Assembly: GCF_900109145.1 (NCBI RefSeq)
Contig: NZ_FNYY01000026.1
Coordinates: 1 to 53,779, forward strand
Length of the DNA: 53,779 bases
Origin: Marinovum algicola
Lineage (GTDB): Bacteria > Pseudomonadota > Alphaproteobacteria > Rhodobacterales > Rhodobacteraceae
Direction of reading: 5' to 3'
Numbering within the stretch: position 1 is the first letter of the stretch; each line of letters starts with the position of its first letter. Position numbers and translations under genes: made by a program. A model generated the notes under the pieces. That model did no database searches and was not told where the DNA came from. It was given only the letters and a program-made list of their open reading frames with translations. This document shows, in pieces, positions 8,322 through 36,978 of the stretch.

Positions 8322-8337
8322 TGTGATGAATATCACT
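8322..8337. promoter_or_regulatory. CRP/FNR-type binding site in divergent promoter region
   Basis: TGTGATGAATATCACT matches the CRP consensus TGTGA-N6-TCACA at all but the last position. Its core GTGAT-N4-ATCAC also resembles the FnrL box TTGAT-N4-ATCAA. It lies in the AT-rich 147-base gap between the multicopper oxidase operon and the cyclase gene, about 90 bases from the former and 40 from the latter. Use by CRP or FnrL is inferred. Confidence 0.6.
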
Positions 8338-8377
8338 TTAAATACCTTTACTTGGAAATCTCGTTTGAGATCGGCAG

Positions 8378-12905: not shown

Positions 12906-12979
12906 GGGAAAATATTCGCCATTTCGGACGGCTCTGGTCCTGAATCGGGCTATCAACCGGCGGCGACGGCGGGTAAGCC

Positions 12980-14221: not shown

Positions 14222-14223
14222 GA

Positions 14224-14292
14224 CCCGAGACCCGGGGGGCCAGCCCCCCGGACCCCCCGGCGGTATTTTCAAAGAGAAGAAGACCAGGGGAC
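14224..14292. repeat. G+C-rich dispersed intergenic hairpin element (copy 1)
   Basis: This 75-base gap between convergent genes holds a GGGGGGCCAGCCCCCC hairpin, then a C-rich and G-rich stretch, then GGTATTTTC and an A/G-rich tail (AGAGAAGAAGA). The same arrangement occurs reversed at 38907-38978. It probably doubles as a bidirectional terminator. Confidence 0.65.
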
Positions 14293-14297
14293 TTGGA

Positions 14298-15383: not shown

Positions 15384-16522
15384 GCCTCGGCCCTTCTGGC
15401 CAAGGCCGCGAGGTTGGGCTTGCCGGCCGGCAGGAGGGGCAGGGCATCAATGCGGATGAAGCGCTGCGGCACGGCCTGCGGCGGCAGGACGGCGCGGCAG
15501 GCGGCGCGCAGGGCCGCCTCCGGCGCGGTGCCCTGGACGAAGGCGATCATCCGGTGGCCCCTTGCGGCATCGGGGCGGGGTACCACCGCGCAGGCCGAGA
15601 CGCCGGGCTGCCCTGCCACCACCGCCTCGATTTCCTCGGGAAAGACATTGTGATCTGCGACGGTGACCATGCGGCTCTTGCGGCCGCGCAGGAACAGATG
15701 GCCGGCCGCGTCGAGATAGCCCATCTCGCCGATGCTCAGCCAGCGGCCCGCGCGCCGGGTGTCGGCAGCGGCGCCGCTGGCGTAGCCGTCGAAGAGATAG
15801 GGGCTGGCGACCCAGATCTCGCCGGTTTCGCCCGCCGGCGCATCGATCCGCAAGTCTACGCCGGGATAGGCGCGGCCGACCGATCCGGCGGGCGTGCCGG
15901 CCTCGCTCATGGTGATGAAACTGGTCTCGCTGGCGCCAAAGAAAACCCGCAGATCGGCCGTCTCGAACCGCGCCCGAAGCTGGCCCTGCAACGCGCTGTC
16001 GAGCGCGCCGCCGCCGCAGAAGATATGGCGCAGCGCGGGGAATTCCGCGATCCCCGCCGTCGCGGCGCCGCGCAGCAGCAGCCGCAGCTGTGTCGGTGTC
16101 GCATAGATCACGCTGATCCGCCCCGTGGCCAGATATTGCGCCTGCGCGCGGGGCCGCATTCCGGCCAGCGCCGCCACATCGGCGCCGAGATGAAACGCTT
16201 CGAGCAGGGCGTAGAGCGTGAGCGAATGGCCAAGATCGCCAAAGCAGGCATAGCGCGCGGCGGGGCCGAGGCCAAAGAGCCCTGCGGTCACCTCGAACGA
16301 GCGCTGCCAGCTTTCGGGCCGTCGCCGGATCACCTTGGGCGCGCCCGAGGACCCGGAGGTCTCGCAGAACAGCATCGGCGGACCGTCCATGGCCAGCGGC
16401 CCCGCTGCCTGTGACAGATGCAGCGCGCCGCCGTGCCGGAGGGCTTGGACCAGCGCAGCGAGCCCGCGCGCCTCTGGCGTCAGCAGGGCGCTCTGCGGCG
16501 ATATGACAAAGCTCTCTTGCAT
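15380..16522 (-). CDS. Short AMP-dependent acyl-CoA synthetase/ligase
   Basis: 380 residues if started at the ATG at 16522 (MQESFVISP). ANL-superfamily motifs are in order: ETSGSSGAPKVIRR (phosphate loop), FGASETSFIT, GEIWVASPYLFDGY, GEMGYLDAAGHLFLRGRKSRM (hinge) and the catalytic-lysine region PAGKPNLAAL. It is about 120-150 residues shorter than usual at the N-terminus, yet all catalytic motifs remain. Starts further upstream would overlap the tamB coding end. It should adenylate a carboxylic acid and pass it to CoA or a carrier. The substrate is unknown. It is coupled to the unusual thiolase by a 4-base overlap. Confidence 0.85.
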   Translation of the reverse strand: MQESFVISPQSALLTPEARGLAALVQALRHGGALHLSQAAGPLAMDGPPMLFCETSGSSGAPKVIRRRPESWQRSFEVTAGLFGLGPAARYACFGDLGHSLTLYALLEAFHLGADVAALAGMRPRAQAQYLATGRISVIYATPTQLRLLLRGAATAGIAEFPALRHIFCGGGALDSALQGQLRARFETADLRVFFGASETSFITMSEAGTPAGSVGRAYPGVDLRIDAPAGETGEIWVASPYLFDGYASGAAADTRRAGRWLSIGEMGYLDAAGHLFLRGRKSRMVTVADHNVFPEEIEAVVAGQPGVSACAVVPRPDAARGHRMIAFVQGTAPEAALRAACRAVLPPQAVPQRFIRIDALPLLPAGKPNLAALARRAEA

Positions 16523-16559
16523 CGCCCCGTTCTGGCACATCCCGCCGGCCAAGGCGACG

Positions 16560-23347: not shown

Positions 23348-23365
23348 CTGCACGCCGATGCTGGC

Positions 23366-23385
23366 GGGATTTGGTGGAGCCTAGG
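23366..23385. repeat. Left attachment repeat of the integrated element
   Basis: GGGATTTGGTGGAGCCTAGG is identical to 36897-36916, where it overlaps the 3' end of tRNA-Ala. These two copies bound about 13.5 kb carrying an integrase next to this one. They are the att sites made by integration. Confidence 0.92.
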
Positions 23386-23505
23386 TCTACTAAGCCCTTG
23401 TCGCACGTCATCGCATTGAACCCCAAAATATTGCGTATCTTCGAGATTTTTGCCATCCATATGGTTCATGTAATTGCAGGTTGTCGCAATCGGTCCTATG
23501 ATAAG

Positions 23506-23527
23506 TGGCGGGACAAATGGCGGGACA
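23506..23527 (+). repeat. Integrase arm-type direct repeats, left end
   Basis: TGGCGGGACA occurs at 23506-23515 and 23518-23527, a 12-base period, just before the integrase start. The same pair with the same period and orientation is at the right end (36826-36847). An 11-mer CTAAGCCCTTG is also shared by both ends (23390-23400 and 36865-36875). This is the arrangement expected of arm-type binding sites in attP. Confidence 0.7.
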
Positions 23528-23531
23528 GACC

Positions 23532-24725
23532 ATGCCGAAGCTAACAGTTAGAAAAGTCGAAACTATCAGGGAGCCGGGAATGTACGGCGACGGGGAGGGG
23601 TTGTACCTCCGCGTGGGGCCAACCGGGGCCAAGTCCTGGATATTGCGAACGCGCATCAAGGGGCGAATTACTGCCGGTGGAAACCCGCTCCGCTGGGAGG
23701 GCGGCTTGGGGTCAGTCAGCCACGTTTCCTTGGCCGAGGCCAGGGACACGGCAAGGGAACTTCGCAAGATTGCACGGACTGGCGGCGATCCGGGCGCGGA
23801 AAAGAACAAAGAGACGCTGACGTTCGAGCAAGCGGCCCGGCGCGTCTATCAGTCATTGCTGCCCACATGGCGCAACGCAAAGCACGCGCAGACATGGATC
23901 GGCACGCTGGAAAACTACGCGTTTCCCGAATTTGGCCGCACGCAGATTCAGGACGTTACCACTGCGGATGTCCACGCTGTGCTTGCGCCTATTTGGACAG
24001 CAAAGCATGAAACGGCCAAGCGGCTCCGCCAACGGATCAGCAGTGTCTTCGATTGGGCCAAGGGCGCGGGCCATTACACAGGAGAGAACCCTGTGAACGG
24101 CCTGAAGAAGGCCCTTCCTCTGGTTCGTCACAAGCCACGCAACATGCCCGCCTTGCCTTGGCAGGAAATCCCGGAGTTCATGGAGGCGCTCAAAAGCCGG
24201 TCGAGTGTCTCGGCACTGGCACTTAGGTTCGTCGTGCTGACCGCCAGCCGTAGCGGCGAAGTTCGGGGTGCGATTTGGGGTGAGTTCGAGGACGCCACTT
24301 GGACCGTCCCGGGGGAGCGCATGAAGCGGGGTGAGCTGCACCGGGTGCCGCTCTCCGCCGCCGCGCTTGAGGTGCTTACATCGGTGCGGGGTCTAGATCC
24401 TGCAATCGTGTTCCCCTCGCCCTCAAAGAGCACCGGCGGGACGGCGCGGGCGCTGTCGGACGCGGCCTTCAAATCCCTCATGCAGAAGGCGGGATACGAG
24501 TATGTGACCGTCCACGGTATGCGCAGCGCGTTTCGCGATTGGGCATCCGAAAGCGTTCATGCGGACCGCGAAGTTGCCGAGGCTGCCTTGTCACACGCCG
24601 TGGGCGACCGTGTTGAGCGCGCCTATGCGCGCAGTGACCTTTTCGAGCGCCGCAAAACGTTAATGGACGCGTGGGGCCGCTATTGCATTGGACAAGCCGG
24701 AAAAATCGTGAGGTTGGCTAGGTGA
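23532..24725 (+). CDS. int: Tyrosine-type site-specific integrase (P4/DUF4102 class)
   Basis: 397 residues from the ATG at 23532; in-frame starts at 23505 (GTG) and 23517 exist but lie inside the arm repeats. The N-terminal DUF4102-like domain reads MYGDGEGLYLRVGPTGAKSWILR. The catalytic domain shows the first Arg in TASRSGEVRGA, the HxxR motif in VHGMRSAFRDW, LSHAVGD, and the tyrosine in RAYARSDLFERRK. It should recombine the element at the 3' end of tRNA-Ala, whose repeat lies 146 bases away. The next gene begins within its stop. Confidence 0.95.
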   Translation: MPKLTVRKVETIREPGMYGDGEGLYLRVGPTGAKSWILRTRIKGRITAGGNPLRWEGGLGSVSHVSLAEARDTARELRKIARTGGDPGAEKNKETLTFEQAARRVYQSLLPTWRNAKHAQTWIGTLENYAFPEFGRTQIQDVTTADVHAVLAPIWTAKHETAKRLRQRISSVFDWAKGAGHYTGENPVNGLKKALPLVRHKPRNMPALPWQEIPEFMEALKSRSSVSALALRFVVLTASRSGEVRGAIWGEFEDATWTVPGERMKRGELHRVPLSAAALEVLTSVRGLDPAIVFPSPSKSTGGTARALSDAAFKSLMQKAGYEYVTVHGMRSAFRDWASESVHADREVAEAALSHAVGDRVERAYARSDLFERRKTLMDAWGRYCIGQAGKIVRLAR

Positions 24726-25498
24726 AGTCGGACCATCACCAAGAAATTGTGGCAGTCATAGAAGAACACGTTCCAACATGGCAGTTGTCAGATTGGGATC
24801 GTGCGTTGCTCTGTAGAGATTGGATTATCGGCGAACTTGACGGTGACGAATTTACAAGCCGGTTTGGCCAAGTGGGTAAGGCCAAGGTTGCCGATCATAC
24901 TCAGCAAGACCAATTGCTCAAAGATTTCGAAGATGCGCTAGGCAAGCTGATTTCTGCAAATGCGCGCCTTCATCCGGATGTAAGACGTTCTCTCAATTAC
25001 GCCTTCTCCCAAAACCTAGATGCGCTCAATGATTCCCGAACGTGTTTCGAGAAACTGGTCGCTTTCGCGGAGTTACCTGAAGATAACGGTAACCGAACTC
25101 TCGAACCGGTAAGTGTTTCTAGGCCATTGGACTGGCTGACGGGTTGGATATTCGGCTGCGTGCACGGTACAGATCCAGACTTGGCCTATCGCGGCAAAGG
25201 CCAGAAAATTGGCGTTGATGCAATATCCGTGGCGCGGCAGGCCATTGCGCAACTTGAAGAATTTGCCCCTAAGGAGCAAGCTAGCGATACTTGGAAAAAA
25301 GTCATGCTCGTTTCAAGATGCCGAAGGATTTGGGCGGATCACGTAGGTGTGCCACCAGTAAAGCCAAGTGAAGGTTCAGCGTTTCACCGGTTTGTCGGAG
25401 ATATGACTTTGGCAATCGGCGAGAATTGGCAGACCGATGCAACGGTGAATGCGTGGCGCCGGTTGCGGGACAGGGATAGCAGAGGCCAAATTTTCTGA
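24722..25498 (+). CDS. Unknown protein coupled to the integrase
   Basis: 258 residues from a GTG overlapping the integrase stop (GTGA). The gene is markedly AT-richer than its neighbours and the chromosome. It is a soluble, acidic and mostly helical protein with no signal peptide or membrane segment. I recognise no domain. Translational coupling to the integrase suggests it is either a helper of integration/excision or cargo carried with it. Codon use points to a different donor. Confidence 0.7.
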   Translation: MKSDHHQEIVAVIEEHVPTWQLSDWDRALLCRDWIIGELDGDEFTSRFGQVGKAKVADHTQQDQLLKDFEDALGKLISANARLHPDVRRSLNYAFSQNLDALNDSRTCFEKLVAFAELPEDNGNRTLEPVSVSRPLDWLTGWIFGCVHGTDPDLAYRGKGQKIGVDAISVARQAIAQLEEFAPKEQASDTWKKVMLVSRCRRIWADHVGVPPVKPSEGSAFHRFVGDMTLAIGENWQTDATVNAWRRLRDRDSRGQIF

Positions 25499-25625
25499 CT
25501 TTCCTATACGTGAGGAAAGCCAAAGCACCCCATAGATTGTCAGCACACCGCAACCGGGCGCGTTCTTTGGCAAAGTCTTTCACTTGTAAGCCCTGTCAGA
25601 GACCGCCCAAGCATAGGGCTGACAA

Positions 25626-25820
25626 ATGGCAAATACCGACCCCCTGATTTGTGACAAGGATGGCGCCAAAATGATTGGCGGGTCAGTGTCAACTTTCTGG
25701 CGCCGCGTCGCAGACGGCACAATTCCGAAGCCGATCAAGATTGGCGGCATGAGCCGTTGGCGCCAAAGCTGGATTGAGCAAGTCATTCAAAAAGCCGAAG
25801 CGGCCCGCGAAGCCGCATAA
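25626..25820 (+). CDS. AlpA/MerR-like helix-turn-helix regulator (excisionase-type)
   Basis: 64 residues: LICDKDGAKMIGGSVSTFWRRVADGTIPKPIKIGG followed by SRWRQSWIEQVI is the AlpA pattern, with a winged-helix recognition segment and a closing R/W-rich strand. AlpA proteins activate integrase/excision genes of P4-like satellites and islands. It lies two genes downstream of the integrase and ahead of the replication module. A stem-loop follows at 25821-25854. Confidence 0.85.
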   Translation: MANTDPLICDKDGAKMIGGSVSTFWRRVADGTIPKPIKIGGMSRWRQSWIEQVIQKAEAAREAA

Positions 25821-25854
25821 GCAAACCCCGAGGCCGAAGGCGCACGGGGCTTGC
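25821..25854 (+). terminator. Stem-loop after alpA, possible terminator or attenuator
   Basis: GCAAACCCCG (25821-25830) pairs with CGGGGCTTGC (25845-25854) except for one internal mismatch. It is followed by GAAATTACG without a clear T-run, so termination is uncertain. Confidence 0.45.
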
Positions 25855-25928
25855 GAAATTACGTTCTTGGCGGGACGTGACCGCATCTTAGCACCGCCGC
25901 TGACGCCTCGCAACCAAGAGGTGCCAAC

Positions 25929-26084
25929 ATGGCAAAGAAGCAGAAGACCGAAACCCAATTCTCCCCGAGCATCGCCCCGAAAGAGGAAATCCAAGTCCGG
26001 CGCATCCAGTACAGGACCGGCCTGCCCTACAGCACCGCGCTTGTGCTGGCCCGGCTGGTCTTCGGGGAGAGCTGCCATGGGTAA
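25929..26084 (+). CDS. Small protein of unknown function (51 aa)
   Basis: The ATG at 25929 opens a frame ending TAA at 26082-26084, encoding a basic 51-residue protein (MAKKQKTETQFSPSIAPKEE at its N-terminus). The next gene begins 8 bases before this stop, so the two overlap. No domain is recognised; the codon pattern and coupling support a real gene. Confidence 0.55.
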   Translation: MAKKQKTETQFSPSIAPKEEIQVRRIQYRTGLPYSTALVLARLVFGESCHG

Positions 26085-26376
26085 CGAGAAACTCAAGCTG
26101 GCCCATCAGGGCCAGCCTTCTCCGCAGAGGCGGGGCCGCTCGGCAATGAGCAGGTGGGCGAAGCCGCAGCACAAGGCTGCGGCCCGCATGATGGGCTACT
26201 GCCTCACGCTGGGCACGTCCGGCGGATGGGTCGGATTTTCACAGTGGGCGAAGGTCCGTCTTGCGCCCGAGGAACGTGCGGCGCTGGCGTTCATGGCCTT
26301 ACGCTCGCTGGATCACGAAACCGCCTGCATGACCGCCGACGCGGCCTTGGGCTTCGAGCAATCGGAGGCGGCGTGA
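26077..26376 (+). CDS. Small protein of unknown function (99 aa)
   Basis: 99 residues from the ATG at 26077, starting inside the preceding small gene. Its stop shares a base with the start of the DUF3631 gene (TGATG). The N-terminal third is basic (QPSPQRRGRSAMSRWAKPQHK) and could bind nucleic acid; the rest is helical. Its place directly ahead of the primase/helicase-like gene suggests a role in the replication module. No family is recognised. Confidence 0.6.
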   Translation: MGNEKLKLAHQGQPSPQRRGRSAMSRWAKPQHKAAARMMGYCLTLGTSGGWVGFSQWAKVRLAPEERAALAFMALRSLDHETACMTADAALGFEQSEAA

Positions 26377-27656
26377 TGGACGGAGGTTTTGACGCTTACC
26401 TGGATGCCGGTTGCCCCGAGAAACCGGTGGACGTTCAAAAGGCTATCGCTGTCATGGCCAAGCTGTCGCCGGTCGAATACGACCAAGCGCGCGAGGCTTT
26501 CGCCAAGGAACACAAGATCCGACTGACAACGCTGGACGCTGAGGTTGAAAAGCTGCGTCCCTATGAGGACCGGAGGACGGATGGAAACTCCGACTTTGAG
26601 GAGGTCGAGCCTTGGGAACAGCCGGTCAATGGCTCTGACTTGTTGCACACGCTGGTCACGACGATTGAGCGGTTCTGCGTCCTGCCCGATCACGCGGCAC
26701 CGCTGATAGCGGCCTGGATCGTTCACGCCTGGGCACATGACGCGGCGGATATCAGTCCGGTTCTGGCTTTCACATCGCCGGAAAAACGGTGCGGCAAATC
26801 GACGGCCATGGCTGTTGTTCACGCCTTGTCACCGAAAGCAGAAATTGCGGCGAATATCACGGCGGCGGTTCTGTTCCGCCTGATCGAGAAGCACAAGCCG
26901 ACGCTGTTGATCGATGAGGCCGATACCTTCCTTGAGGAACGCATTGAAATGCGCGGCATGATCAACGGCGGGCACAACCGGCAATTGGCGTTTGTGTGGC
27001 GCTGTGAGGGCGACGACCATGAACCGAAACGGTTCAACGTCTGGGCTCCGAAGGCCGTGGCCATGATCGGCAACTTGCCGGACACGCTGGAAGACCGGGC
27101 GCTTGTCGTTCAACTCAAGCGCAAGGAGGGCAGTGAAACCGTCGAAAGAATGCGGGCCAGCCGGGTTGCCGAATTGCTTCCGGTTCGCCGAATGCTGGCG
27201 CGGTGGGTGGCAGATAATGAAATCGCGCTGGCCAATGCCGACCCTGACATGCCCGAAAGCCTGAATGACCGGGCGCAAGACAATGCACGGTGCCTGTGTG
27301 CCATTGCGGACGCGGCGGGCGGTGACTGGCCTCAAAGCATCCGCGCGGCGCTGGTGGGCATGGCCGCAGCGCGGGCCGGTGACGAACCGAAGTCCAAGGG
27401 CGTCATGCTGCTGACTGACATTGCCGACATCCTGGACCGGTGGAAGGGCGACCGGATCAAAAGTAATGATCTCGTGGCCGAACTGGTGGCGATAGACGAT
27501 GGACCGTGGGCCGTCTGGAAGGGTGGCGAGCCGATCACCACGCGCATGATTGCATCGTTGCTCAAGCCTTATGGCGTGAGACCGCAACAGGACAGAGCAT
27601 ACCGCTTCTACGCTGTCGGTGATCTGCGCGGCGCAGTGGGGAGGTACACGTCATGA
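26376..27656 (+). CDS. DUF3631 primase/helicase-like ATPase (replication protein of the island)
   Basis: 426 residues from the ATG at 26376. A Walker A segment FTSPEKRCGKSTAMAV (about 132-147), Walker B TLLIDEADTF (about 176-185) and an arginine-rich sensor region (NLPDTLEDRALVVQLKRK) mark an AAA-type NTPase. The C-terminal part (ADILDRWKGDRIKSNDLVAELVAI, then a winged-helix-like segment) is the DUF3631 domain. Such proteins are found in plasmids, prophages and islands as replication helicase/primase factors. Two iteron-like arrays follow directly downstream, supporting an initiator role. No primase catalytic motif is evident, so a separate primase could be supplied by the host or a helper phage. 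Confidence 0.88.
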   Translation: MDGGFDAYLDAGCPEKPVDVQKAIAVMAKLSPVEYDQAREAFAKEHKIRLTTLDAEVEKLRPYEDRRTDGNSDFEEVEPWEQPVNGSDLLHTLVTTIERFCVLPDHAAPLIAAWIVHAWAHDAADISPVLAFTSPEKRCGKSTAMAVVHALSPKAEIAANITAAVLFRLIEKHKPTLLIDEADTFLEERIEMRGMINGGHNRQLAFVWRCEGDDHEPKRFNVWAPKAVAMIGNLPDTLEDRALVVQLKRKEGSETVERMRASRVAELLPVRRMLARWVADNEIALANADPDMPESLNDRAQDNARCLCAIADAAGGDWPQSIRAALVGMAAARAGDEPKSKGVMLLTDIADILDRWKGDRIKSNDLVAELVAIDDGPWAVWKGGEPITTRMIASLLKPYGVRPQQDRAYRFYAVGDLRGAVGRYTS

Positions 27657-28006
27657 CGTACCTTGCCCGTCTGCCCCGAAAAAAGCGTCACAAGCGTCAC
27701 ATCCGTCACGCGGCAACGTCCCATGTGTCACACCCGTCACCAAGCGTCACGGAAAAGTCAATGAAATCAATAGGTGTGACGCTTGTGACGCTTGTGACGC
27801 TTGGAAGCGGGGTGGCAATGGGGTGCACGGCAAGTGTCACGGGATGCGTCACGCAAGCGTCACCGGAAGCCGAAGGTTGCACGAAACGCGCCCTAGCCAG
27901 CGCCATGGAAACCTTGTTTGGGCGTGGTGACATCATCGTCGGAGAACACGGAAGCGGTCAGAAAGCCAGGAAGCACATAGCACGGAAAGGTCAGTGCAAT
28001 GACTAG
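27653..28006 (+). CDS. Open frame over the GCGTCAC repeat array, doubtful protein
   Basis: 117 codons from an ATG overlapping the DUF3631 stop. The 9-base DNA repeats are read as tripeptide repeats (KRHKRHIRH, then VTLVTLVTL). No domain is seen. The overlap with the upstream gene favours translation, but the composition is better explained by a cis-acting origin. It may be both. Confidence 0.4.
   Translation: MTYLARLPRKKRHKRHIRHAATSHVSHPSPSVTEKSMKSIGVTLVTLVTLGSGVAMGCTASVTGCVTQASPEAEGCTKRALASAMETLFGRGDIIVGEHGSGQKARKHIARKGQCND
27685..27863. repeat. Iteron-like array of GCGTCAC repeats (possible replication origin, part 1)
   Basis: GCGTCAC or close variants start at 27685, 27694, 27703, 27725, 27734 and 27744 on the plus strand. 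The inverse GTGACGC starts at 27776, 27785 and 27794, and the plus orientation returns at 27834, 27846 and 27857. The period within groups is mostly 9 bases. About twelve copies occur in 180 bases, directly after the replication ATPase gene. This resembles iterons bound by an initiator; binding is inferred. Confidence 0.65.
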
Positions 28007-28014
28007 ATGTTGTG

Positions 28015-28141
28015 GGTGCAACGCAGGTGCAACACAAGGCGCAACCCCCGGTACAACCCCCCGCCAACGCCCCGCCAACGGGGGTGCAACATATACCCCT
28101 TATACCCCGTGCGTTGCACCCGCCCTCAGAGGCGGGGTGCA
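28015..28141. repeat. Second iteron-like array, GGTGCAAC repeats (possible replication origin, part 2)
   Basis: GGTGCAAC starts at 28015, 28026, 28038 (GGCGCAAC) and 28050 (GGTACAAC), a spacing of 11-12 bases, close to one helical turn. It recurs at 28083 and, inverted, as GTTGCACC at 28113-28120. An AT-containing stretch (ATATACCCCTTATA) lies between the last two. It is distinct from the upstream GCGTCAC array. Confidence 0.6.
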
Positions 28142-28192
28142 CGCACTTCCGAAGGTTTTCGCTCAAGGCAAACATTGGCGGAGAATTTGGCG

Positions 28193-28612
28193 ATGACCCG
28201 AAAAAACGGACGAAATTCGGATGGGACTTTCGCTCGCGGCAATCCCGGGAAACCTCAAGGTGCTCGCCACAAGGCTACGAAGGCCGTTCAGGATCTTCTT
28301 CAAGGTGAAGCCGAGGCGTTGACCCGGAAGGCTATCGACTTGGCTATAACCGGCGACACAACGGCACTGCGGTTGTGCTTGGAGCGGATTGCGCCGCCAC
28401 AAAAGGACGCGGCCATTTCGTTTTCCCTGCCTACCATCGAGACGATGGACGACGCGGCAAGCGCTGCGCGGGCAATTCTTCAGGCGGTTTCTTGCGGCGA
28501 GATAACCCCCATGGAAGCCGCTTCGGTCATGGCGGTGGTTGAACAGTTCCGTCGCACTCTCGAACTCACCGAAATTGAGCGCCGTATTGCGGCACTGGAG
28601 GCAACTAAATGA
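28193..28612 (+). CDS. DUF5681 protein, phage packaging-associated
   Basis: 139 residues from the ATG at 28193; an earlier in-frame ATG at 28007 would read through the iteron array. The N-terminus NGRNSDGTFARGNPGKPQGARHKATKAV is the DUF5681 signature (FxxGNPGxPxGxRxK). A helical C-terminus follows (SFSLPTIETMDDAASAARAILQAV). In prophages such proteins are commonly encoded just upstream of the large terminase, where a small-terminase-like role is suspected. Here no large terminase follows. The next gene overlaps by ATGA. Confidence 0.8.
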   Translation: MTRKNGRNSDGTFARGNPGKPQGARHKATKAVQDLLQGEAEALTRKAIDLAITGDTTALRLCLERIAPPQKDAAISFSLPTIETMDDAASAARAILQAVSCGEITPMEAASVMAVVEQFRRTLELTEIERRIAALEATK

Positions 28613-28935
28613 GCATCATCGATAAAAGGGTAAAAAAGCTGGAAGCCAAACGCTCTGACGGAAATTTCGTGTGGGTACGCGCGCCAAGTGCATGGAGCGA
28701 GGATCGTTGCAGGAGCGAAGCCAAAAGCTTGTTGCCGCAAGATTTCGTTTGGGAGGGTTGCGAGTTGAGTATCCAGCAATCGCCGGAATCTGAGCAGCTT
28801 GACGTGATCTTCGCCGGCAGCGGCAGCGAGCTAAGCGCCATCTTGAAAGAAGTCGCGCGGCGCGGCAATCGGATTACGAATGGTCGCCCGGCAGCCGGCC
28901 CTGACGCGGATGATCTGGGTGAGGGTGGCAAATGA
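28609..28935 (+). CDS. Unknown small protein (108 aa)
   Basis: 108 residues from an ATG overlapping the DUF5681 stop. It opens with a short coiled-coil-like segment (MSIIDKRVKKLEAKR) and then a mixed alpha/beta region. A similar opening (KRLGSRVENLEKTV) occurs in the next gene, suggesting both N-termini oligomerise. No family is recognised. It is part of the overlapping operon running from DUF5681 to the ejection-type protein. Confidence 0.65.
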   Translation: MSIIDKRVKKLEAKRSDGNFVWVRAPSAWSEDRCRSEAKSLLPQDFVWEGCELSIQQSPESEQLDVIFAGSGSELSAILKEVARRGNRITNGRPAAGPDADDLGEGGK

Positions 28936-29156
28936 AGCGGTTGGGCTCACGCGTCGAAAATCTCGAAAAAACAGTTGTCGCACCTCGGAGCTTTCAGATC
29001 ATCCGAACCATCTTGTGTCCGGGCGCGAGCGGTGTTTGGCGGGAGGACGTCATTTGCGTGCACACGCCAGGAGAAACATTCACAAGGCGGGAAGGCGAAA
29101 GTCATACGCAGTTTTTCGAAAGAGTTGATCAAATCAGCAAGGGGGCGGCGAAGTGA
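28932..29156 (+). CDS. Unknown small protein (74 aa)
   Basis: 74 residues from an ATG overlapping the upstream stop (ATGA); its own stop overlaps the GTG of the next gene. The N-terminal helix resembles that of the preceding protein. No domain is recognised. Tight coupling on both sides supports it as a real gene. Confidence 0.65.
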   Translation: MKRLGSRVENLEKTVVAPRSFQIIRTILCPGASGVWREDVICVHTPGETFTRREGESHTQFFERVDQISKGAAK

Positions 29157-31234: not shown

Positions 31235-31352
31235 GCGGAACCGGGAGCTGCTACAACCACGCGGCCGTCGGGCCCTTCTTCAAAACGATCAAGTCTAGTG
31301 TTCTTTGAGCAGCGCTAGCTTAATCAGGGCAAACTAATTCCACTTAGCGCCG

Positions 31353-32348
31353 TTAATTATTTAGCGAGTAAATTACCTTTCGGGCAATATCTTCATTCTT
31401 TTGACTGCGTCCGGCGCCGGGGCTTCCGCTGTAGTTTTCGTCAAAAACGAGTAGCGTGTAGATCACGTCAGGCCCTGAGAAGAATTTTGTGAGATAGGTT
31501 TCCGATTGTCCGGCGGGCGCATTACAGACCATCCGAAGTTCTCTCGCCTGATGGTTATCGTCGAGCGAGATGCCGCGTGAACTAGTGGCGTAGTCTCCAT
31601 TGCAGCCCTGAGCGATAAACTGGGTGTCGTCCGGGTCACTTTCACGCAGGTCATCTATAGTGACATCGCTCACAATCAATGAAAAGCCCGCGACGCCACT
31701 TTCGTCTGCTTCCCAGGCCACCGCGTTGCTCCATCCGCGTTCGGATAGCTCAGACTCTGATAGGAACCGGAAATCGTTTGCGCCTAACTCGGATATCACC
31801 ATCGTAGCCAGTTGAAACAAGACTGTTTTGTCGCTTGTTGCGGTTGCTTTGGGCGCTGCGGCATAATCAAAGTTTCGGAGCGCACATCGGCGCGCGGCTT
31901 CCAGTGCACGATACGTACCTTTGAGGCTGTACGGGGTAACTGTGCCGAGGGCTTCGATATTGAGATAATGACCCTTCTTAAAAGCGTCCATGGCGGCGTC
32001 AAAGTCCCTAATGTTAAGGATCGCGAAGCTTGAATCTATCGCGCTAGCATTTCCGTAGAATGGGCGTCGGCGGTCGACATAGAGGGCGACAGGGAAAGTT
32101 TGGCCGGCAGTCAGCCCCAGATTTCCGGAGACGCCGACGGTCACGGATGCGTCAAAGTTGATCGAAAAATGTAAGGTACTTCCATGATTATAGGCCGCAG
32201 AAATCGCGCAGTGCGAAAATTTCCCTGTGAGGTCGTTGGTGTATGCTGCACCGGACCAGTTCCCATGTCCAAACGATGATCTAGGTATTTCCTCAGCGGC
32301 AGCTTGAGCCGATAGCAGCACCACGGCGAAAAAGGACGCAATTCTCAT
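31353..32348 (-). CDS. Secreted protein of unknown function (AT-rich cargo)
   Basis: 331 residues from the ATG at 32348, with RBS GGAGGA directly upstream; an ATG 18 bases earlier is less well placed. A Sec signal peptide (MRIASFFAVVLLSAQAAAEE) is clear. The mature part is beta-rich with about five cysteines and no recognised domain. Base composition is far AT-richer than the rest of the island and the chromosome, and it is transcribed against its neighbours, as expected of a recently acquired moron gene. Its start abuts the broken end of a ParB-like gene. Confidence 0.75.
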   Translation of the reverse strand: MRIASFFAVVLLSAQAAAEEIPRSSFGHGNWSGAAYTNDLTGKFSHCAISAAYNHGSTLHFSINFDASVTVGVSGNLGLTAGQTFPVALYVDRRRPFYGNASAIDSSFAILNIRDFDAAMDAFKKGHYLNIEALGTVTPYSLKGTYRALEAARRCALRNFDYAAAPKATATSDKTVLFQLATMVISELGANDFRFLSESELSERGWSNAVAWEADESGVAGFSLIVSDVTIDDLRESDPDDTQFIAQGCNGDYATSSRGISLDDNHQARELRMVCNAPAGQSETYLTKFFSGPDVIYTLLVFDENYSGSPGAGRSQKNEDIARKVIYSLNN

Positions 32349-32730
32349 GACAATTCCTCCGATCACATCTGGAAGGCTACATCGCGCTCAACGTTCTGTC
32401 CATTTTCTGATGCGGTCGGAATTGACCCCGACGCAGATGGCCGAACACCTCGCGAAGCGTAAGGAGCTTTGGGCGGCCAGGAATAACGCGAACACTGTTC
32501 GCGAAAAGCCCGGTAGACCGAAAGGGTTTGCGGGGGAAACATCCGACGCGACCGGTGTATCCGCTCGGCATGTTCAAAAGGCAGTCGCCCGCGCCTCCGG
32601 CGTCACCGAGGAAGCCCGTGACGCCATTCGGGGCACCGACATGGACAAGGGCACGGTGCTGGACGAGTTGCGCCGCGTGGCCCCTGAGCGCCAGCTAGAT
32701 GTGAGCGAAATGCGGCAGTTTGCACGCTGA
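32347..32730 (+). pseudogene. C-terminal fragment of a ParB-like protein
   Basis: The frame encodes a clear ParB/Srx-type C-terminal half from about 32413: SELTPTQMAEHLAKRKELW, then VSARHVQKAVARASG (helix-turn-helix), GTDMDKGTVLDELRRV. The N-terminal nuclease/CTP-binding half is missing; the frame before it is unrelated sequence next to the divergent secreted-protein gene. It looks truncated by that insertion. A short product could still be made from the ATG at 32347. Confidence 0.65.
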
Positions 32731-32747
32731 CCGCTTCCTAGCTCTGG

Positions 32748-32990
32748 TCAGTCTTGCTCCGCCTTGTTCAGCGCCACGCCCGGCCCGGCGGCAACCTGCC
32801 CGCTGTCAAGGAACTGGATGCCCTTGTCTTCGAGGGCTTTGCGGATCGCTTCGGCGCTGGAGTGTTGCAACCCCCCCTTTTCGGTCTCGAAGCGGTTGAT
32901 TGTCGTGAAGGAAACTCCGGCGATTTCCGCTAATTCCCGTGTTCCAAGTCGGAGGGCATTTCTCGCCATTCGAAGTTGCTCGGGCGTCAC
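32748..32990 (-). CDS. Xre-family repressor-like HTH regulator
   Basis: 80 residues from a GTG at 32990, with GAGG about 8 bases ahead. The whole protein is a helix-turn-helix of the Xre/Cro type: QLRMARNALRLGTRELAEIA, GVSFTTINRFETEKG, then AEAIRKALEDKGIQFLDSG. It is divergent from the operon at 33094, and the 103-base gap contains a strong promoter and an inverted repeat. It probably keeps the island's early operon silent. Confidence 0.88.
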   Translation of the reverse strand: MTPEQLRMARNALRLGTRELAEIAGVSFTTINRFETEKGGLQHSSAEAIRKALEDKGIQFLDSGQVAAGPGVALNKAEQD

Positions 32991-33009
32991 GTGATTACCT
33001 CGTTAGTAT

Positions 33010-33070
33010 TTTTGCTTACTGTGTATTGACAGTGGCCTGCATGGTTCTTATTTATACCCTGTAAGCAAAA
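33010..33070. promoter_or_regulatory. Divergent promoter with inverted-repeat operator for the Xre switch
   Basis: TTTTGCTTAC (33010-33019) and its exact reverse complement GTAAGCAAAA (33061-33070) flank a sigma-70 promoter reading rightward: TTGACA at 33026-33031, 17-base spacer, TATTTA at 33049-33054. The half-sites lie on both sides of the promoter, so a repressor bound to both would block it. Confidence 0.65.
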
Positions 33071-33093
33071 TGCGAACAAGGTAAGGAAACGTC

Positions 33094-33663
33094 ATGACTG
33101 TCCAAGCCACCGAATTTAGCCGTTCCTGGATCATGAGCCGCGCTTGGCACTACGTCCGCATCTGGCGTTGCGCCCCCACGGCGGGCACCCTGTCCCGCGC
33201 TTTGAAATACGCTTGGGGTGACATGAAGGCCCGGATGCAGGGCCTGCGCCTGACGGATGAATTGAGCGGCAATGATCAAGAGCTTGCCGCGCTCGAAGCG
33301 AAGGAATTCACCACGGCAGCCGAGCGGGACCGCATTGGGTTTCTGCGCACCGCCGTCGCTCACGAAAAGTCCGAAGGCGACTATGCCGAAAAGCGGGGGC
33401 TGATCGAAGCCGCCCCCTGCACCGTCACGTTCATCAAGGCAGACGGGACGCGGCGCATCATGCGGACCGAGCCGGGCAGGCTGATTGCCAAGGGCGACAA
33501 AGCCACCCGTGCGGGCCAGCGTGCCACCAAGACACGCAAAGCTCGCCACCCGAACCTGTTGCCCGTCTGGGACGCTGAGGCGCAGGCTCCGCGTTCCGTG
33601 AATCTCGCTACTGTCACGCGCGTTGTCGTTGACGGCAGCACACATGAATTCCGGGCCAACTGA
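33094..33663 (+). CDS. DUF2693-like SH3-barrel protein, first gene of the early operon
   Basis: 189 residues. The C-terminal half (CTVTFIKADGTRRIMR ... HPNLLPVWDAEAQAPRSVNL) matches the DUF2693/SH3-like beta-barrel found in phages and plasmids, thought to bind nucleic acid or protein. The N-terminus (SRAWHYVRIWRCA ... LSRALKYAWGDMK) has the Trp-rich helical motif common in small prophage proteins. It lies directly after the Xre-controlled promoter. The role is unknown. Confidence 0.7.
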   Translation: MTVQATEFSRSWIMSRAWHYVRIWRCAPTAGTLSRALKYAWGDMKARMQGLRLTDELSGNDQELAALEAKEFTTAAERDRIGFLRTAVAHEKSEGDYAEKRGLIEAAPCTVTFIKADGTRRIMRTEPGRLIAKGDKATRAGQRATKTRKARHPNLLPVWDAEAQAPRSVNLATVTRVVVDGSTHEFRAN

Positions 33664-33694
33664 GGCCCGGGACTGACCAAGGGAGAACCTGACA

Positions 33695-34093
33695 ATGACC
33701 AAGCCGAATCCCGCCACCGCGAAAGCCTACGGGTTGTCGCGCCGAAACCTTCTGGCTGCTGTGCCTGCGGTAGCAATCGCCCCGGCAGCAGCAGCGGTTG
33801 CTGCACCTGGCGCGCAGGATAAGCATCCGCAATGGCTGGCAGAGTATTACGAAACACAACGCGTCTGGGAACTGGCGGAGGAAGACACGCCAAGAGAAGA
33901 ATTTCTGTTCGAGCTCTGGCACGAAATGCAGCGGCAATTTTGCAGAACGCGCGCAACGACAATTGAGGGCATCGCAGCCCAAGCTGAGTGGCTGGTCCAT
34001 GATGCTGAGGACTACTGGGCCTGCGAGGACCAGAGGATCCTAGTTGAGAACATCTTGGCGGCACTGCAAGGGCTGATGGAGGCGGACGCATGA
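33695..34093 (+). CDS. Unknown protein with twin-arginine-like signal (132 aa)
   Basis: 132 residues. The N-terminus GLSRRNLLAAVPAVAIAPAA is a twin-arginine signal followed by a hydrophobic run and an AAP-type cleavage site. The mature part is small, acidic and helical with several tryptophans. No domain is recognised. The next gene overlaps its stop (ATGA). Confidence 0.65.
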   Translation: MTKPNPATAKAYGLSRRNLLAAVPAVAIAPAAAAVAAPGAQDKHPQWLAEYYETQRVWELAEEDTPREEFLFELWHEMQRQFCRTRATTIEGIAAQAEWLVHDAEDYWACEDQRILVENILAALQGLMEADA

Positions 34094-34332
34094 AAAAGTC
34101 GGCTTACTTTCGACGGGAACGCGACGAACTGGACGCGACCGTTTCTGACCTCGAAAACCTGATCGACGCGCAACAATGCGTTGTGTGGGAACTCATCAAC
34201 CTGCAAGCCGAGCCCGGCTCGGAGATTGACCGCCTTCGCAATGCGATGGTCGGGATTGCAAATGCCATGGCGAGCCGCGTGCGAGCAGAACATGCACGGC
34301 CGGACAGAGGGCGGAGGGCAGACGCAGCGTGA
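34090..34332 (+). CDS. Unknown small helical protein (80 aa)
   Basis: 80 residues from an ATG overlapping the upstream stop. It is a charged, coiled-coil-like protein (FRRERDELDATVSDLENLID) with an Arg-rich tail. Its stop overlaps a further small frame at 34332. No family is recognised. Confidence 0.55.
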   Translation: MKKSAYFRRERDELDATVSDLENLIDAQQCVVWELINLQAEPGSEIDRLRNAMVGIANAMASRVRAEHARPDRGRRADAA

Positions 34333-34490
34333 TGATCTGGCTCAGCGCCACACAAGAGGCAGCCGGAGTATATCCGGCCGGCGAAACCGGAGGGGAGGTG
34401 AGCATCAAATCTGAAAACCAGCTACGTCACGGACAGCCCGTTTTCGCGCGGGCTGCCCTTTTGTTTCATGCCACATGCATTCCCAGATGA
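34332..34490 (+). CDS. Possible small protein (52 aa) spanning a terminator-like hairpin
   Basis: An ATG sharing a base with the previous stop (TGATG) opens a 52-codon frame that ends over the ATG of the next gene (ATGA). The perfect stop-start chain favours translation. The frame nevertheless crosses a hairpin with a T-rich tail at 34434-34463, and the product has no recognisable feature. Confidence 0.35.
   Translation: MIWLSATQEAAGVYPAGETGGEVSIKSENQLRHGQPVFARAALLFHATCIPR
34434..34463 (+). terminator. Rho-independent terminator-like hairpin
   Basis: CAGCCCG (34434-34440) pairs with CGGGCTG (34449-34455) over an 8-base loop, followed by CCCTTTTGTTT. It would end or attenuate the early operon before 34487. 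Confidence 0.6.
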
Positions 34491-34984
34491 CATTTCAGTA
34501 CGGCATCAACCGGACCTGGTCGGATTGCTACCTTCCTCAGATCAAAAGCATCGTCGGGGCGCACCTGCTGGCGACCGCGCCCGACAATCTCGACATGAAG
34601 CACGCCACGGATTTGTTGATGCTGGACGCCCGCGATATGCGCATTGCCGCTCGCGTCCGCAGGCCAGGGTATGCGAGCCGATACCCGCATGAGTTCACCA
34701 TCCGCTCTGAGGCGGCATATGGCGGTGAAACAGAGCTATCCAAAATCGTGAACGGCAAGGGAGACTGGATGTTCTACGGGCACGCGTCCAGCAGGGGCTC
34801 ATGCTTCGATAGCTGGTGGATACTCGACTTGCGCGCCTTCCGCGCGGCACTGATTCGGCAGGTCACCAACGGGCATCCCATCCGTTGCGGCGACAAGCGC
34901 AACACGGACGGGACCGCGTTCAAGTGGTTTGACATCCGGTCGTTTCCGGCGAACCCGCCGCTGGTGGTGGCGAGGTCGTTGTAA
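34487..34984 (+). CDS. Unknown phage-type protein (165 aa)
   Basis: 165 residues from the ATG at 34487 (MTFQYGINRTWSDCYLP); an ATG 12 bases upstream is less likely. Features such as WSDCYLPQIKSIVGAHLL, MRIAARVRRPGYASRYPHEFTIR and GDWMFYGHASSRGSCFDSWWILDLRAF suggest a mixed alpha/beta globular protein related to unnamed proteins common in prophages and islands. No catalytic motif can be assigned. Confidence 0.65.
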   Translation: MTFQYGINRTWSDCYLPQIKSIVGAHLLATAPDNLDMKHATDLLMLDARDMRIAARVRRPGYASRYPHEFTIRSEAAYGGETELSKIVNGKGDWMFYGHASSRGSCFDSWWILDLRAFRAALIRQVTNGHPIRCGDKRNTDGTAFKWFDIRSFPANPPLVVARSL

Positions 34985-35078
34985 CCGCGCCATCGCCGAA
35001 CTTTTCACGAGAGGCATTGCATTGCGTCGCCACACGTCTAGCGTGATGTGATCGAAGCATTTTTTAATCGAGGGTTAG

Positions 35079-35531
35079 ATGAAACGATTCTCATTCATTG
35101 CGGTATTCGCTTTACTCGCAGCTTGCGCCGAAACCACCACGACACAGTTGGCGAGCAATGTTGTTCGGATCGACGCCAGTGCAGCCCCTGCCTGCGGACG
35201 CACAGGCGCTATCAAGCTGGTCAACAAGATGGCAGCCGTAGAGACGCTGCGCTTGGGGTATGACAAGTACATCATTTCCAACAGCCAGGCGCAAAACAAT
35301 GTTCGCGTCGTCGGGCACACCTACAATACCACCGGCACCTATGGCTACGGCACGTTCAACGCCAACACCTACGCAACCCCGATAATCGGCGGATCGACCG
35401 ACGCTGCGGTCATTGTCTACATGTACAAGGCGGGCGATCCGCAGGGACGGCAGGCCATCGACGCCAGAACAACTCTGGGCGCAAACTGGCAGGAAATCGT
35501 CGCTGAGGGGCCGCCGACAACCTGCAACTAG
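35079..35531 (+). CDS. Lipoprotein of unknown function
   Basis: 150 residues. MKRFSFIAVFALLAACAE carries a signal peptide with lipobox LAAC, so the protein is lipid-anchored. The mature part is rich in Thr, Asn and Gly (TYNTTGTYGYGTFNANTYAT) and probably beta-structured. Surface lipoproteins of this kind on phages and islands can exclude other phages, but nothing specific shows this here. It stands alone in the cargo region. Confidence 0.75.
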   Translation: MKRFSFIAVFALLAACAETTTTQLASNVVRIDASAAPACGRTGAIKLVNKMAAVETLRLGYDKYIISNSQAQNNVRVVGHTYNTTGTYGYGTFNANTYATPIIGGSTDAAVIVYMYKAGDPQGRQAIDARTTLGANWQEIVAEGPPTTCN

Positions 35532-35558
35532 CGTAGCTCATTACTGCTTGGGGTGTCG

Positions 35559-35714
35559 GTGAGGCGAAGTCTGTACCGGTGCACCAGTCAGGCCGCATGG
35601 CTGGCAGATAACCGCCACACCGACAACGGCACGCTGGCGCATATCATGGTGTCGAACGCAATGGCCGCGCAGGTCAGCCGGACTTGGAAGGGCTATTGGC
35701 AGCGTGCGGCTTAG
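35559..35714 (+). CDS. Possible small protein (51 aa)
   Basis: A GTG at 35559 opens a frame to TAG at 35712-35714, encoding a 51-residue basic protein ending with SRTWKGYWQRAA. The composition is protein-like (AAWLADNRHTDNGTLAHIMV), but there is no clear RBS. It may be a remnant of a larger gene. Confidence 0.3.
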   Translation: MRRSLYRCTSQAAWLADNRHTDNGTLAHIMVSNAMAAQVSRTWKGYWQRAA

Positions 35715-35786
35715 TGACGCTTGACAGCGGCCACCGGCTGACTCATATAACTCTTACTGCATCCCGGCAGACTTGATCTGTCGCCA

Positions 35787-35812
35787 GCCGTGGGCGTGAA
35801 AATGCTCACGGC
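35787..35812 (+). terminator. Stem-loop upstream of the NYN gene
   Basis: GCCGTGGGC (35787-35795) pairs with GCTCACGGC (35804-35812), with one G-U pair, over an 8-base loop. ATTTGCATTTTTA follows. It may end upstream transcription or shape the leader of the NYN gene 24 bases on. Confidence 0.5.
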
Positions 35813-35835
35813 ATTTGCATTTTTAGGGGTCTCGC

Positions 35836-36474
35836 ATGGCGCGGATTTTTGGATATGTCGATGGCTTCAATGTTTATCATGCCATTGATGACGCGAACAG
35901 AGCGGTGCGGGGCGCGCGGTCCCACCTCAAGTGGCTAAATCTATTTTCTTTATTGCAGGAATTCACCGATCCCGCGGTACACTCAATAGACGCGGTGAAG
36001 TTCTTCACGGCATACCCGACGTGGAACAAGGAGAAGACGGAACGTCACAAGAACTATACTCGCGCACTCGAATGTGCAGGCGTGACGATCATTGAGGGGC
36101 AGTTCAAACCTAAGACATGTTTCTGCAAGAACTGCCGGACCAACTACAAAGCGCGGGAAGAAAAAGAGTCCGACGTCAACATAGCAATGCATCTGATTAA
36201 CGATGCCCATCTTGATCGTTTCGATCAAGCATTCTTGGTGACCAACGACTCTGATCTATTAGGCCCGGTTAGGCTCCTGCGAAACACCTTCGATGACAAG
36301 CAAATCAAGGTGATCGCGCCCCCGTTTCGACGCCACAGCAAAGAGTTGTGGGCGGCGGCGGACAAGCGAGGGCAGATCCTAGAAGAGCATATGGAACGGA
36401 ACCTGCTGCCTGAAACTGCAAACGATGGCAGTGGGCGCGTTCTATTTCGCAGGCCAGACGACTACCGACCGTAG
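35836..36474 (+). CDS. NYN-domain (PIN-fold) putative nuclease
   Basis: 212 residues. The N-terminus IFGYVDGFNVYHAIDDA and the later EKESDVNIAMHLINDA and VTNDSDLLGPVRLLR are the conserved acidic motifs of NYN/LabA-type PIN-fold ribonucleases. A CFCKNC zinc-binding-like insertion lies at about residue 95-100. It should cut RNA using metal ions. The gene is AT-rich and lies at the tRNA end of the island, a usual place for cargo such as anti-phage genes. A defence role is an inference. The small frame at 36462-36584 overlaps its end on the other strand. Confidence 0.85.
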   Translation: MARIFGYVDGFNVYHAIDDANRAVRGARSHLKWLNLFSLLQEFTDPAVHSIDAVKFFTAYPTWNKEKTERHKNYTRALECAGVTIIEGQFKPKTCFCKNCRTNYKAREEKESDVNIAMHLINDAHLDRFDQAFLVTNDSDLLGPVRLLRNTFDDKQIKVIAPPFRRHSKELWAAADKRGQILEEHMERNLLPETANDGSGRVLFRRPDDYRP

Positions 36475-36584
36475 CCTCTTTTCTTTAACGCGCTCCACAC
36501 CCGCCCCACACGCATCACCACCCCACGTTCCTCCATCCGCTTCAAATACGTCCTGACACGCTCTGACGGCGTCCCACGAGGCAT
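36462..36584 (-). CDS. Possible small basic protein (40 aa)
   Basis: On the minus strand the ATG at 36584 opens MPRGTPSERVRTYLKRMEER and ends in SALKKRGYGR before TAG. A GTG at 36629, directly after an in-frame stop, could extend it by 15 residues. The sequence resembles a short winged-helix segment. It may be a real island-end gene or the tail of a lost one. The rest of 36475-36896 holds arm repeats only. Confidence 0.35.
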   Translation of the reverse strand: MPRGTPSERVRTYLKRMEERGVVMRVGRVWSALKKRGYGR

Positions 36585-36825
36585 ATCCGGCACAACGGCT
36601 GAATCGGTCGTAAAGCTGCTGTGCGGCACTCAGGCTCATCTCTGAGCGCTGACAGCACGGCTTTTGGGAGTTGATACTTAGAAACCGACAAAAACTAACA
36701 TACTCGCGAACGGCACCGTTGTTCATAGTCGGTGAGGGCTTCGGAGTGGCAGGGCACTTGCAGGCATGGGCGCGGAATGCAGTGATTCCCGAAATCCTTG
36801 AATCGCAGTCCCTCCGAAGGCCTTG

Positions 36826-36847
36826 CGGCGGGACAAGTGGCGGGACA
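36826..36847 (+). repeat. Integrase arm-type direct repeats, right end
   Basis: CGGCGGGACA (36826-36835) and TGGCGGGACA (36838-36847) repeat with a 12-base period, as at the left end of the island. A perfect 6-bp hairpin TTAGCC-GACC-GGCTAA (36853-36868) and the shared CTAAGCCCTTG follow before the att repeat. Confidence 0.7.
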
Positions 36848-36902
36848 CAGGGTTAGCCGACCGGCTAAGCCCTTGCAAACATTCAAATATAAGTCCGGGA
36901 TT

Positions 36903-36978
<76 letters not shown>

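Follow-up and report, generated by a model that had tools for sequence, protein, structure and literature searches.

What kind of element sits in a transfer RNA (tRNA) gene, carries one protein of the sort found inside virions and has no capsid gene? This question is raised by an island in a contig of the rhodobacteral bacterium Marinovum algicola (NZ_FNYY01000026.1, assembly GCF_900109145.1), of which we analysed positions 1 to 53,779, hereafter the window. A preliminary description had likened the island to the phage-inducible chromosomal islands (PICIs). Our comparisons favour a PICI-like satellite over a decayed prophage, and we consider it on balance probable that the island is a phage-satellite-like element dependent on a podovirus helper. 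As a comparative classification the satellite reading is well supported, and the action of the ejection-type protein is put forward as a proposal only.

The island spans 13,531 bp between exact 21-bp direct repeats, of which the right copy overlaps the 3′ end of tRNA-Ala(GGC) (Table 1). When the 600-bp flanks were shuffled (300 trials), the longest common word was 14 bp and the mean 9.1 bp. Its G+C content in 1-kb blocks is 55–65 per cent, against 61–73 per cent outside, and the tRNA was the sole Rfam match in the island region. The described content, namely an integrase, AlpA, a replication ATPase, iterons, an Xre regulator, a DUF5681 protein and one virion-type protein in an att-bounded element of about 13.5 kb, was confirmed throughout. 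Several of these are PICI traits: an integrase with a specific att site, an AlpA-type regulator downstream of it, and a replication gene (DUF3631) with iterons whose role as an origin is predicted from sequence. Seven of the eight window copies of AAGCGTCAC fall in the first iteron array, where 0.30 copies would be expected for the whole window, and one 250-bp stretch holds eight copies of GCGTCAC, where 300 island shuffles gave three at most; both arrays are beyond chance. The preliminary description had pointed to tRNA-Ala in relatives as a place where the gene order might recur. Three congeners share the tRNA and the right-flank genes, but none of the island genes was found in the 12–16 kb fetched around it; their left flank is unlike that of the window, so the comparison does not yield a perfectly clean empty site.

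Pfam and PHROGs scans covered twenty of the twenty-one selected open reading frames (ORFs) of the island, the other being the ORF at 27653–28006 that spans iterons. Among the twenty we found no head, capsid, portal, terminase, tail or relaxase/mobilisation family, and the non-ejection structural proteins of three podoviruses gave no tblastn match in the island at E < 0.1. The reported lack of capsid, portal, large terminase, tail and conjugation genes was thereby upheld. A PICI likewise lacks its own capsid, portal and large terminase, though one relative described below (L035) has a large-terminase-like gene. The island has neither the head, portal, terminase and tail genes of a podovirus prophage nor, among the scanned ORFs, the relaxase/mobilisation gene of an integrative mobilizable element.

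The virion-type protein is encoded by an intact ORF of 693 codons. Residues 56–691 of its 693 align to positions 11–651 of the 661-position phrog_5880 profile, a full-length match. Relatives were found in 8 of 50,697 phage records: Sulfitobacter phages pCB2047-A and pCB2047-C (two records each), Microcystis phage Mae-JY35 and Rhizobium phages RHph_Y25, RHph_N2 and RHEph18. The window protein is 45–52 per cent identical to the homologue in pCB2047-C and 31–34 per cent to that in RHph_Y25. In both phages the gene lies downstream of the head and structural genes, with a putative fibre gene next in pCB2047-C, and we infer that it closes the podoviral injection operon. In a Paracoccus island (L034; fetched loci carry L numbers and genomes G numbers) a phrog_598 ‘DNA ejection’ gene and a gene for 409 amino acids precede the phrog_5880 homologue. 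Because this small–medium–large order fits the gp14-, gp15- and gp16-like order of podoviral ejection operons given in the available text of PMC8954989, the window protein most probably takes the gp16-like place in an ejection set. The phrog_5880 family itself is listed as of unknown function, and the assigned role rests on synteny and on the size range in that text. The predicted fold is nearly all-helical, with a predicted local distance difference test (pLDDT) score of 67; no PDB fold matched at E ≤ 0.001, and the best PDB sequence match (E 0.057) is unconvincing.

One way to account for a lone ejection gene is decay, in which a podovirus prophage would have lost its capsid, portal and tail genes. 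Such partial remnants are known: in G246, locus L028 (14000–15688) is a truncated podoviral ejection gene among host genes, an example of real decay. In the window, by contrast, the ORF is intact, and the genes around it are nearly absent from phages. Full podoviruses do share the ejection gene, as the preliminary description would have expected of a decayed prophage, but the backbone marker o169 occurs in 0 of 50,697 phage records and the replication gene (rep) in 1, so that by these counts the backbone is not a phage’s. Neither rep nor o169 matched the collection of viral contigs.

Other islands in the family pair the same backbone with ejection-type genes, which also argues against decay. 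The o169 gene occurs in 10 of 295 family genomes, M. algicola included, and nine stretches were fetched from eight of the other nine. Two are bounded islands, L207 (12.2 kb in tRNA-Ser, att 14 bp) and L210 (14.0 kb in tRNA-Thr, att 17 bp with the same core as L034); in each, 0 of 100 shuffles gave a repeat as long. They share integrase, xre, a WYL_2-like gene and o169 with the window. A hidden Markov model (HMM) built from our ejection proteins matched L207 (5e-26), L208 (2e-16) and L210 (6e-29), with 0 matches in 392 reversed ORFs. DUF5681 is present at 63–64 per cent identity in L208, L209 and L214, and the podovirus structural set (the proteins of three podoviruses) gave no match at E < 0.1 in L207–L210 or L212–L214. 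The large proteins in the ejection slot of L211, L212 and L214, with no phrog_5880 or HMM match, look ejection-like by eye, as does the large protein of L216, which had no HMM match; no ejection gene was seen in the stretches fetched for L209, L213 and L215. The rep gene matched in 9 of 295 family genomes, again including M. algicola. Five rep-bearing stretches (L022, L024–L027) have no ejection gene, so rep is no marker of the class and o169 is a better one. At L022 (G141, 8402–18845, by tRNA-Leu) the window’s rep, at 73 per cent, keeps company with one transposase present twice and a von Willebrand-type protein whose C-terminus looks sorting-like by eye.

Islands with a phrog_5880-type gene also turned up in Paracoccus and Bradyrhizobium. 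A profile scan of genome contigs with the ejection-protein alignment returned seven loci, of which L031, L032, L033 and L037 sit in podoviral structural modules, and L034, L035 and L036 do not. (The record holding L033 is titled a Candidatus Paceibacterota metagenome-assembled genome; its structural module is like that of Rhodobacterales phages and it is probably misbinned.) Ejection-protein matches, mostly weak or partial, were found in 35 of 242 Bradyrhizobium and 26 of 125 Paracoccus genomes. Among the loci fetched, L110/L111, L113, L114, L115, L118 and L121 match podoviral head- or tube-region genes; L116, L117, L119 and L122 stand outside this classification. A class-wide search with query A2 matched 11 of 385 genomes, only M. 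algicola itself beyond 1e-40; the next best (G335, L122) had injection-gene matches only. A search of the order Rhizobiales at E ≤ 1e-20 matched 4 of 297 genomes, two already known and two additional (G1169 and G1295).

Seven chromosomal islands, counting the window’s, thus carry a phrog_5880-type gene, with att sites firm in six and tentative in one; none of them yielded a portal or major capsid gene. Beside the window island, L207 and L210 they comprise L034 (23.3 kb in tRNA-Thr; att 16 bp, 0 of 100 shuffles as long) and three of Bradyrhizobium type: L035 (14.7 kb in tRNA-Ser, att 39 bp), L112 (15.3 kb in tRNA-Lys, att 47 bp) and L036 (about 14.9 kb in tRNA-Ser). The right end of L036 is tentative: the word at its tRNA end is only 14 bp long and has a second copy farther along, and one shuffle in 100 gave a word of that length. 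In L034 and L112 the structural set matched only injection-operon genes. Family scans were also made of ten L035 proteins and parts of other islands; since the structural set comes from three podoviruses, the exclusion of other capsid types extends no further than such scans.

Some of these relatives carry what looks like packaging equipment. L036 encodes, in order, an integrase, an AlpA-like protein, an AAA ATPase, a small terminase (TerS), a collar-domain fibre (PF07484, 3.9e-15), proteins of 309 and 503 amino acids that are without a family and ejection-type by position, the ejection protein and a 363-amino-acid protein. The last (11611–12702) matches head scaffolding phrog_3927 (2e-7) and has homologues in L035, L112 and the viral contig L172; a scaffold without a capsid is a candidate capsid-remodelling gene. 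An Sf6-type TerS (PF20901) is found in L036 (4e-30) and L112 (7.2e-34). L035 has DUF5681 in the TerS slot, a fibre (phrog_8763, 2.4e-27), phrog_5880 (6.3e-97) and a large-terminase-like gene (phrog_2, 5.2e-30). This last gene, at 13343–14959, ends an island that has no portal or capsid, which is unusual for so small a satellite.

An eighth element of this kind came from IMG/VR, where it is filed as a virus. Contig IMGVR_UViG_3300005616_000155 (L172/L181) is 16,186 bp long and has an exact 120-bp terminal repeat, giving a circle of 16,066 bp in which the island genes are joined in circularly permuted order. Its proteins match those of the islands at 47 per cent (TerS), 52 per cent (fibre), 69 per cent (ejection), 30 per cent (476-like), 35 per cent (372-like, scaffold-type) and 28 per cent (integrase), integrase domains were detected by the family scan, and the podovirus structural set gave no match. 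TerS is therefore present in three of the eight elements, and a fibre with the gene beside the ejection gene in four (L035, L036, L112 and the circle). The contig shows that an element of the Bradyrhizobium-island kind exists, as assembled, as a circular or concatemeric molecule; this bears on its form and not on packaging. L172 was the one island-like locus among forty-eight viral loci, several of which are short fragments. Two others, L144 and L179, had no match to the portal or head set, and L179 has a portal-like ORF by eye.

We then placed the ejection proteins in a tree of sixty-two rows. It leaves out L002 (a copy of L003), the weak or remnant loci L004, L028 and L029, the first-third matches L207, L208 and L210, other weak genome matches, and L172, which was entered as u172. 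Starred branches force a minimum of four switches between the phage and the island state, and three of these switches may represent one gain and two losses. The Bradyrhizobium-type island proteins and the circular contig form one clade (support 100/100), the window protein groups with podoviral IMG/VR contigs L135, L139 and L145 (100/96), and the L034 protein shares 78 per cent identity with its counterpart in a full Paracoccus prophage (L110/L111); L120 sits on a very long branch and its placement is unsure. Ratios of nonsynonymous to synonymous substitution rates (dN/dS), rough because dS is saturated and for several pairs from NG86 only, are 0.13–0.15 between L035 and L036, 0.08–0.17 between these and the circle, and 0.19–0.20 for L112 pairs. 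An island-only clade with ratios of 0.08–0.20 and at least four state changes do not suit decay, which would not spare the same gene again and again. The scaffold-like gene of the Bradyrhizobium islands could be a leftover, and the window’s own ratios, given below, point the same way; taken together, we think a decayed prophage quite improbable.

Conjugation offers a different route, in which the island would be an integrative mobilizable element and the ejection gene chance cargo. The rep-related stretches that lack an ejection gene are compatible with this, as is L120, where phrog_5880, DUF5681 and Xre lie near integrase, relaxase-like and MobC-like ORFs, the latter two recognised by eye. 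Set against it are the absence of any relaxase/mobilisation family from the scanned window ORFs and the repeated retention of ejection genes and the TerS of relatives, which chance cargo leaves unexplained. We regard it as improbable for the window. L120 itself (G798, Bradyrhizobium, 6913–17689; phrog_5880 1.6e-97, DUF5681 48 per cent) is possibly an ejection gene on a mobilizable element. Seemingly the same toxin–antitoxin pair, by eye, occurs at 2964–4048 of L120 and at 12115–13208 of L216, an o169-type element on Paracoccus versutus pTAV4.

How might a satellite of this kind work? Its anatomy shows integration at tRNA-Ala by its own integrase. Excision would involve the integrase and AlpA, and replication the DUF3631 ATPase acting at the two iteron arrays. 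As the island has no capsid gene, it would rely on helper capsids to package its DNA. Three units of 13.53 kb make 40.6 kb, 99 per cent of the 40.93-kb pCB2047-C genome, so a concatemer might fill a full-size head; this ratio is suggestive only. In the Bradyrhizobium type the scaffold-like gene could instead alter the size of the helper capsid. The ejection-type protein would be loaded into the shared particles, where it may serve delivery of island DNA to the next cell or, as a mismatched one of three, spoil delivery by the helper. According to PMC10883804, foreign ejection proteins enter P22 particles; these function when the complete set, or gp16 together with gp20, is foreign but are dead when only gp16 or only gp20 is, and one foreign set largely evades SieA exclusion. 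The full set of L034 fits delivery on this analogy, and the window’s single protein is compatible with delivery, given a helper that matches, and also with spoiling the helper. More tentatively, and with rather less than even confidence, we suggest that Alphaproteobacteria harbour a recurrent class of podovirus satellites that lack a shell gene and supply ejection proteins of their own, ranging from one gp16-like protein to a set of three genes, with or without fibre, TerS and scaffold-like genes; helper capsids would thereby be fitted with an injection machine that the satellite encodes.

The same P22 results could be read as defence. A lone ejection protein, placed in the envelope or poisoning virions, might block podoviruses from a superinfection-exclusion island that moves by its integrase alone or by conjugation in trans. 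P22 with a single foreign gp16 or gp20 is non-functional and SieA acts through these two proteins (as far as given in PMC10883804), the E. coli PICI EcCIMP1 confers superinfection immunity (so described in PMC11773190), and the NYN-domain protein of the window, the PADLOC candidate HEC-09, is likely an anti-phage cargo gene. A purely defensive island nevertheless leaves unexplained the TerS, scaffold-like and fibre genes of the Bradyrhizobium islands and the circle, as well as the three-gene ejection set of L034, and a defence role is compatible with a satellite life style. We judge it unlikely as the main explanation.

Several observations weigh against the satellite reading. No TerS or scaffold gene was recognised in the scanned ORFs of the window island, which for want of a recognisable TerS is not a demonstrated PICI; what stands of the proposed PICI plan is its satellite-like character, backed by islands that have the backbone, the ejection gene or both in common with it and in which neither a portal nor a major capsid gene was found, by TerS in two Bradyrhizobium islands and by the circular form. 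With no second phrog_5880 gene in its genome, M. algicola offers no obvious prophage as helper. Among the 295 family genomes, the sole full-length phrog_5880 within an island is that of the window: in L207 (1.8e-18), L210 (4.4e-20) and L208 (1.6e-5) only the first third of the profile was matched, so that two of the seven islands have a partial gene, and the L207 protein also matches phrog_21712, ‘major head protein’ (6.8e-26), unless this is a mislabel. The ejection ORF of L112, which has no podoviral head or tube match, is frameshifted. For the window protein, dN/dS against phages (0.24–0.38) exceeds that between two phages (0.07), so some relaxation of selection is possible. DUF5681 was considered as a small terminase, a role that it might conceivably fill, given that it takes the TerS slot in L035 as compared with L036, but by profile it is unrelated to Sf6 TerS (probability 0.1 per cent) and the idea stays a conjecture. 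Its best PDB sequence match had an E of 0.033, the fold search returned nothing at E ≤ 0.001, and the AlphaFold model has a pLDDT of 70 and a predicted template modelling score of 0.41. Replication genes precede DUF5681 in L133 and L134, and in L132 and L007 it lies ahead of tail-type genes; in all four loci the next gene encodes a small protein that to the eye shows an R..RLE pattern.

The nearest precedent is EcCIMP1, which PMC11773190, in the text available, presents as a proven PICI with helper vB_EcoP_Kapi1. It too has an integrase, AlpA and a primase/helicase but no identifiable capsid or terminase genes, and the products of genes beyond its primase are similar to proteins of DNA transfer and head morphogenesis. 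Its helper is a podovirus by name only (EcoP), ‘podovir’ being absent from that text; the host is gammaproteobacterial, helper and transfer were shown by experiment, and we liken the two by description only. With this precedent the present island is not categorically new. The phage-inducible chromosomal minimalist islands of Vibrionaceae (PICMI) are also small, with int, AlpA and primase, lack capsid-remodelling genes and are packaged as concatemers in full-size heads; the prototype has six genes, and neither ‘ejection’ nor ‘terminase’ appears as a word in the main text (PMC10803314). Gram-negative and capsid-forming PICIs are named in the accessible part of PMC11389934.

The likeness to such PICIs lies in the integration site, AlpA and a replication gene, and some relatives described here have TerS and a scaffold-like gene; the differences are the ejection (in some relatives also fibre) genes, the alphaproteobacterial host and the lack of a recognised packaging gene in the window. 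Podoviruses pCB2047-A/C and RHph_Y25 share the phrog_5880 protein, but have full genomes of 41–44 kb with head and tail genes and a distant integrase (33 per cent in pCB2047-C). The remaining genes of the island, including its cargo, are listed in Table 1.

Table 1. Features of the M. algicola island in window coordinates, with family matches (E-values) and relatives.
Feature	Coordinates	Strand	Match or remark
attL	23365–23385		21-bp direct repeat; chance test on shuffled flanks
Tyrosine integrase, 406 aa	23505–24725	+	PF22022 1.9e-26, PF13356 1e-17, PF00589 5.9e-11, phrog_1 2.6e-46
orfB, 258 aa	24722–25498	+	start overlaps integrase stop; no useful family match
AlpA-like excisionase/regulator, 64 aa	25626–25820	+	phrog_9834 9.1e-8; 64% to AlpA of Paracoccus island L034
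51-aa ORF	25929–26084	+	weak match in L023
99-aa ORF upstream of rep	26077–26376	+	46–49% in two rep-bearing loci, L023 and L022
Replication ATPase DUF3631 (rep)	26376–27656	+	PF12307 1.4e-35; relatives at 73–74%
Iteron array 1, GCGTCAC, direct and inverted	27683–27863		inside ORF 27653–28006
Iteron array 2, GGTGCAAC/GTTGCACC	28015–28120		second repeat set
DUF5681 protein, 139 aa	28193–28612	+	PF18932 1.2e-7; 62% in IMG/VR contigs
108-aa protein	28609–28935	+	coiled-coil look by eye; no family match
74-aa protein	28932–29156	+	kin of protein after DUF5681 in L132, z 7.1 vs shuffles
Ejection-type internal virion protein (putative), 693 aa	29153–31234	+	phrog_5880 2.6e-104; podovirus homologues
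337-aa protein, cargo	31353–32366	-	signal-like N-terminus by eye; no family match
ParB-like protein, 127 aa	32347–32730	+	phrog_3264 1.2e-4; 55% in L034
Xre regulator	32748–32990	-	phrog_7950 9.4e-8; 74% in L207, 60% in L208
WYL_2-like protein, divergent from xre	33094–33663	+	PF10902 7.3e-4 (below cut-off); 46% in L207
132-aa protein	33695–34093	+	twin-arginine-translocation (TAT)-like signal; TIGR02811 0.0056 (below cut-off)
80-aa protein	34090–34332	+	from ORF list
o169, backbone marker near tRNA end	34475–34984	+	counts in genomes and phage records in text
150-aa cargo protein	35079–35531	+	lipoprotein-like by eye; no family match
NYN-domain protein, candidate defence HEC-09	35836–36474	+	PADLOC 2.5e-48; PF01936 7.8e-9; phrog_7929 2.3e-23
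attR	36896–36916		21-bp repeat over tRNA 3′ end
tRNA-Ala(GGC)	36903–36978	-	integration target

The satellites known so far take capsids from their helper, change capsid size, divert packaging or build a capsid themselves (compare PMC11389934). Among the matches listed in open-licence PMC papers we found no description of satellites in Alphaproteobacteria that carry ejection genes. If the proposal is right, satellites that replace DNA-ejection proteins would attack their helper at a different point, and dressing helper capsids with their own injection machine would be the converse of what capsid-forming PICIs do. One could then test how strongly the podoviral ejection set governs the range of cell envelopes that DNA can cross, and candidate satellites would extend to Rhodobacterales and Bradyrhizobium.

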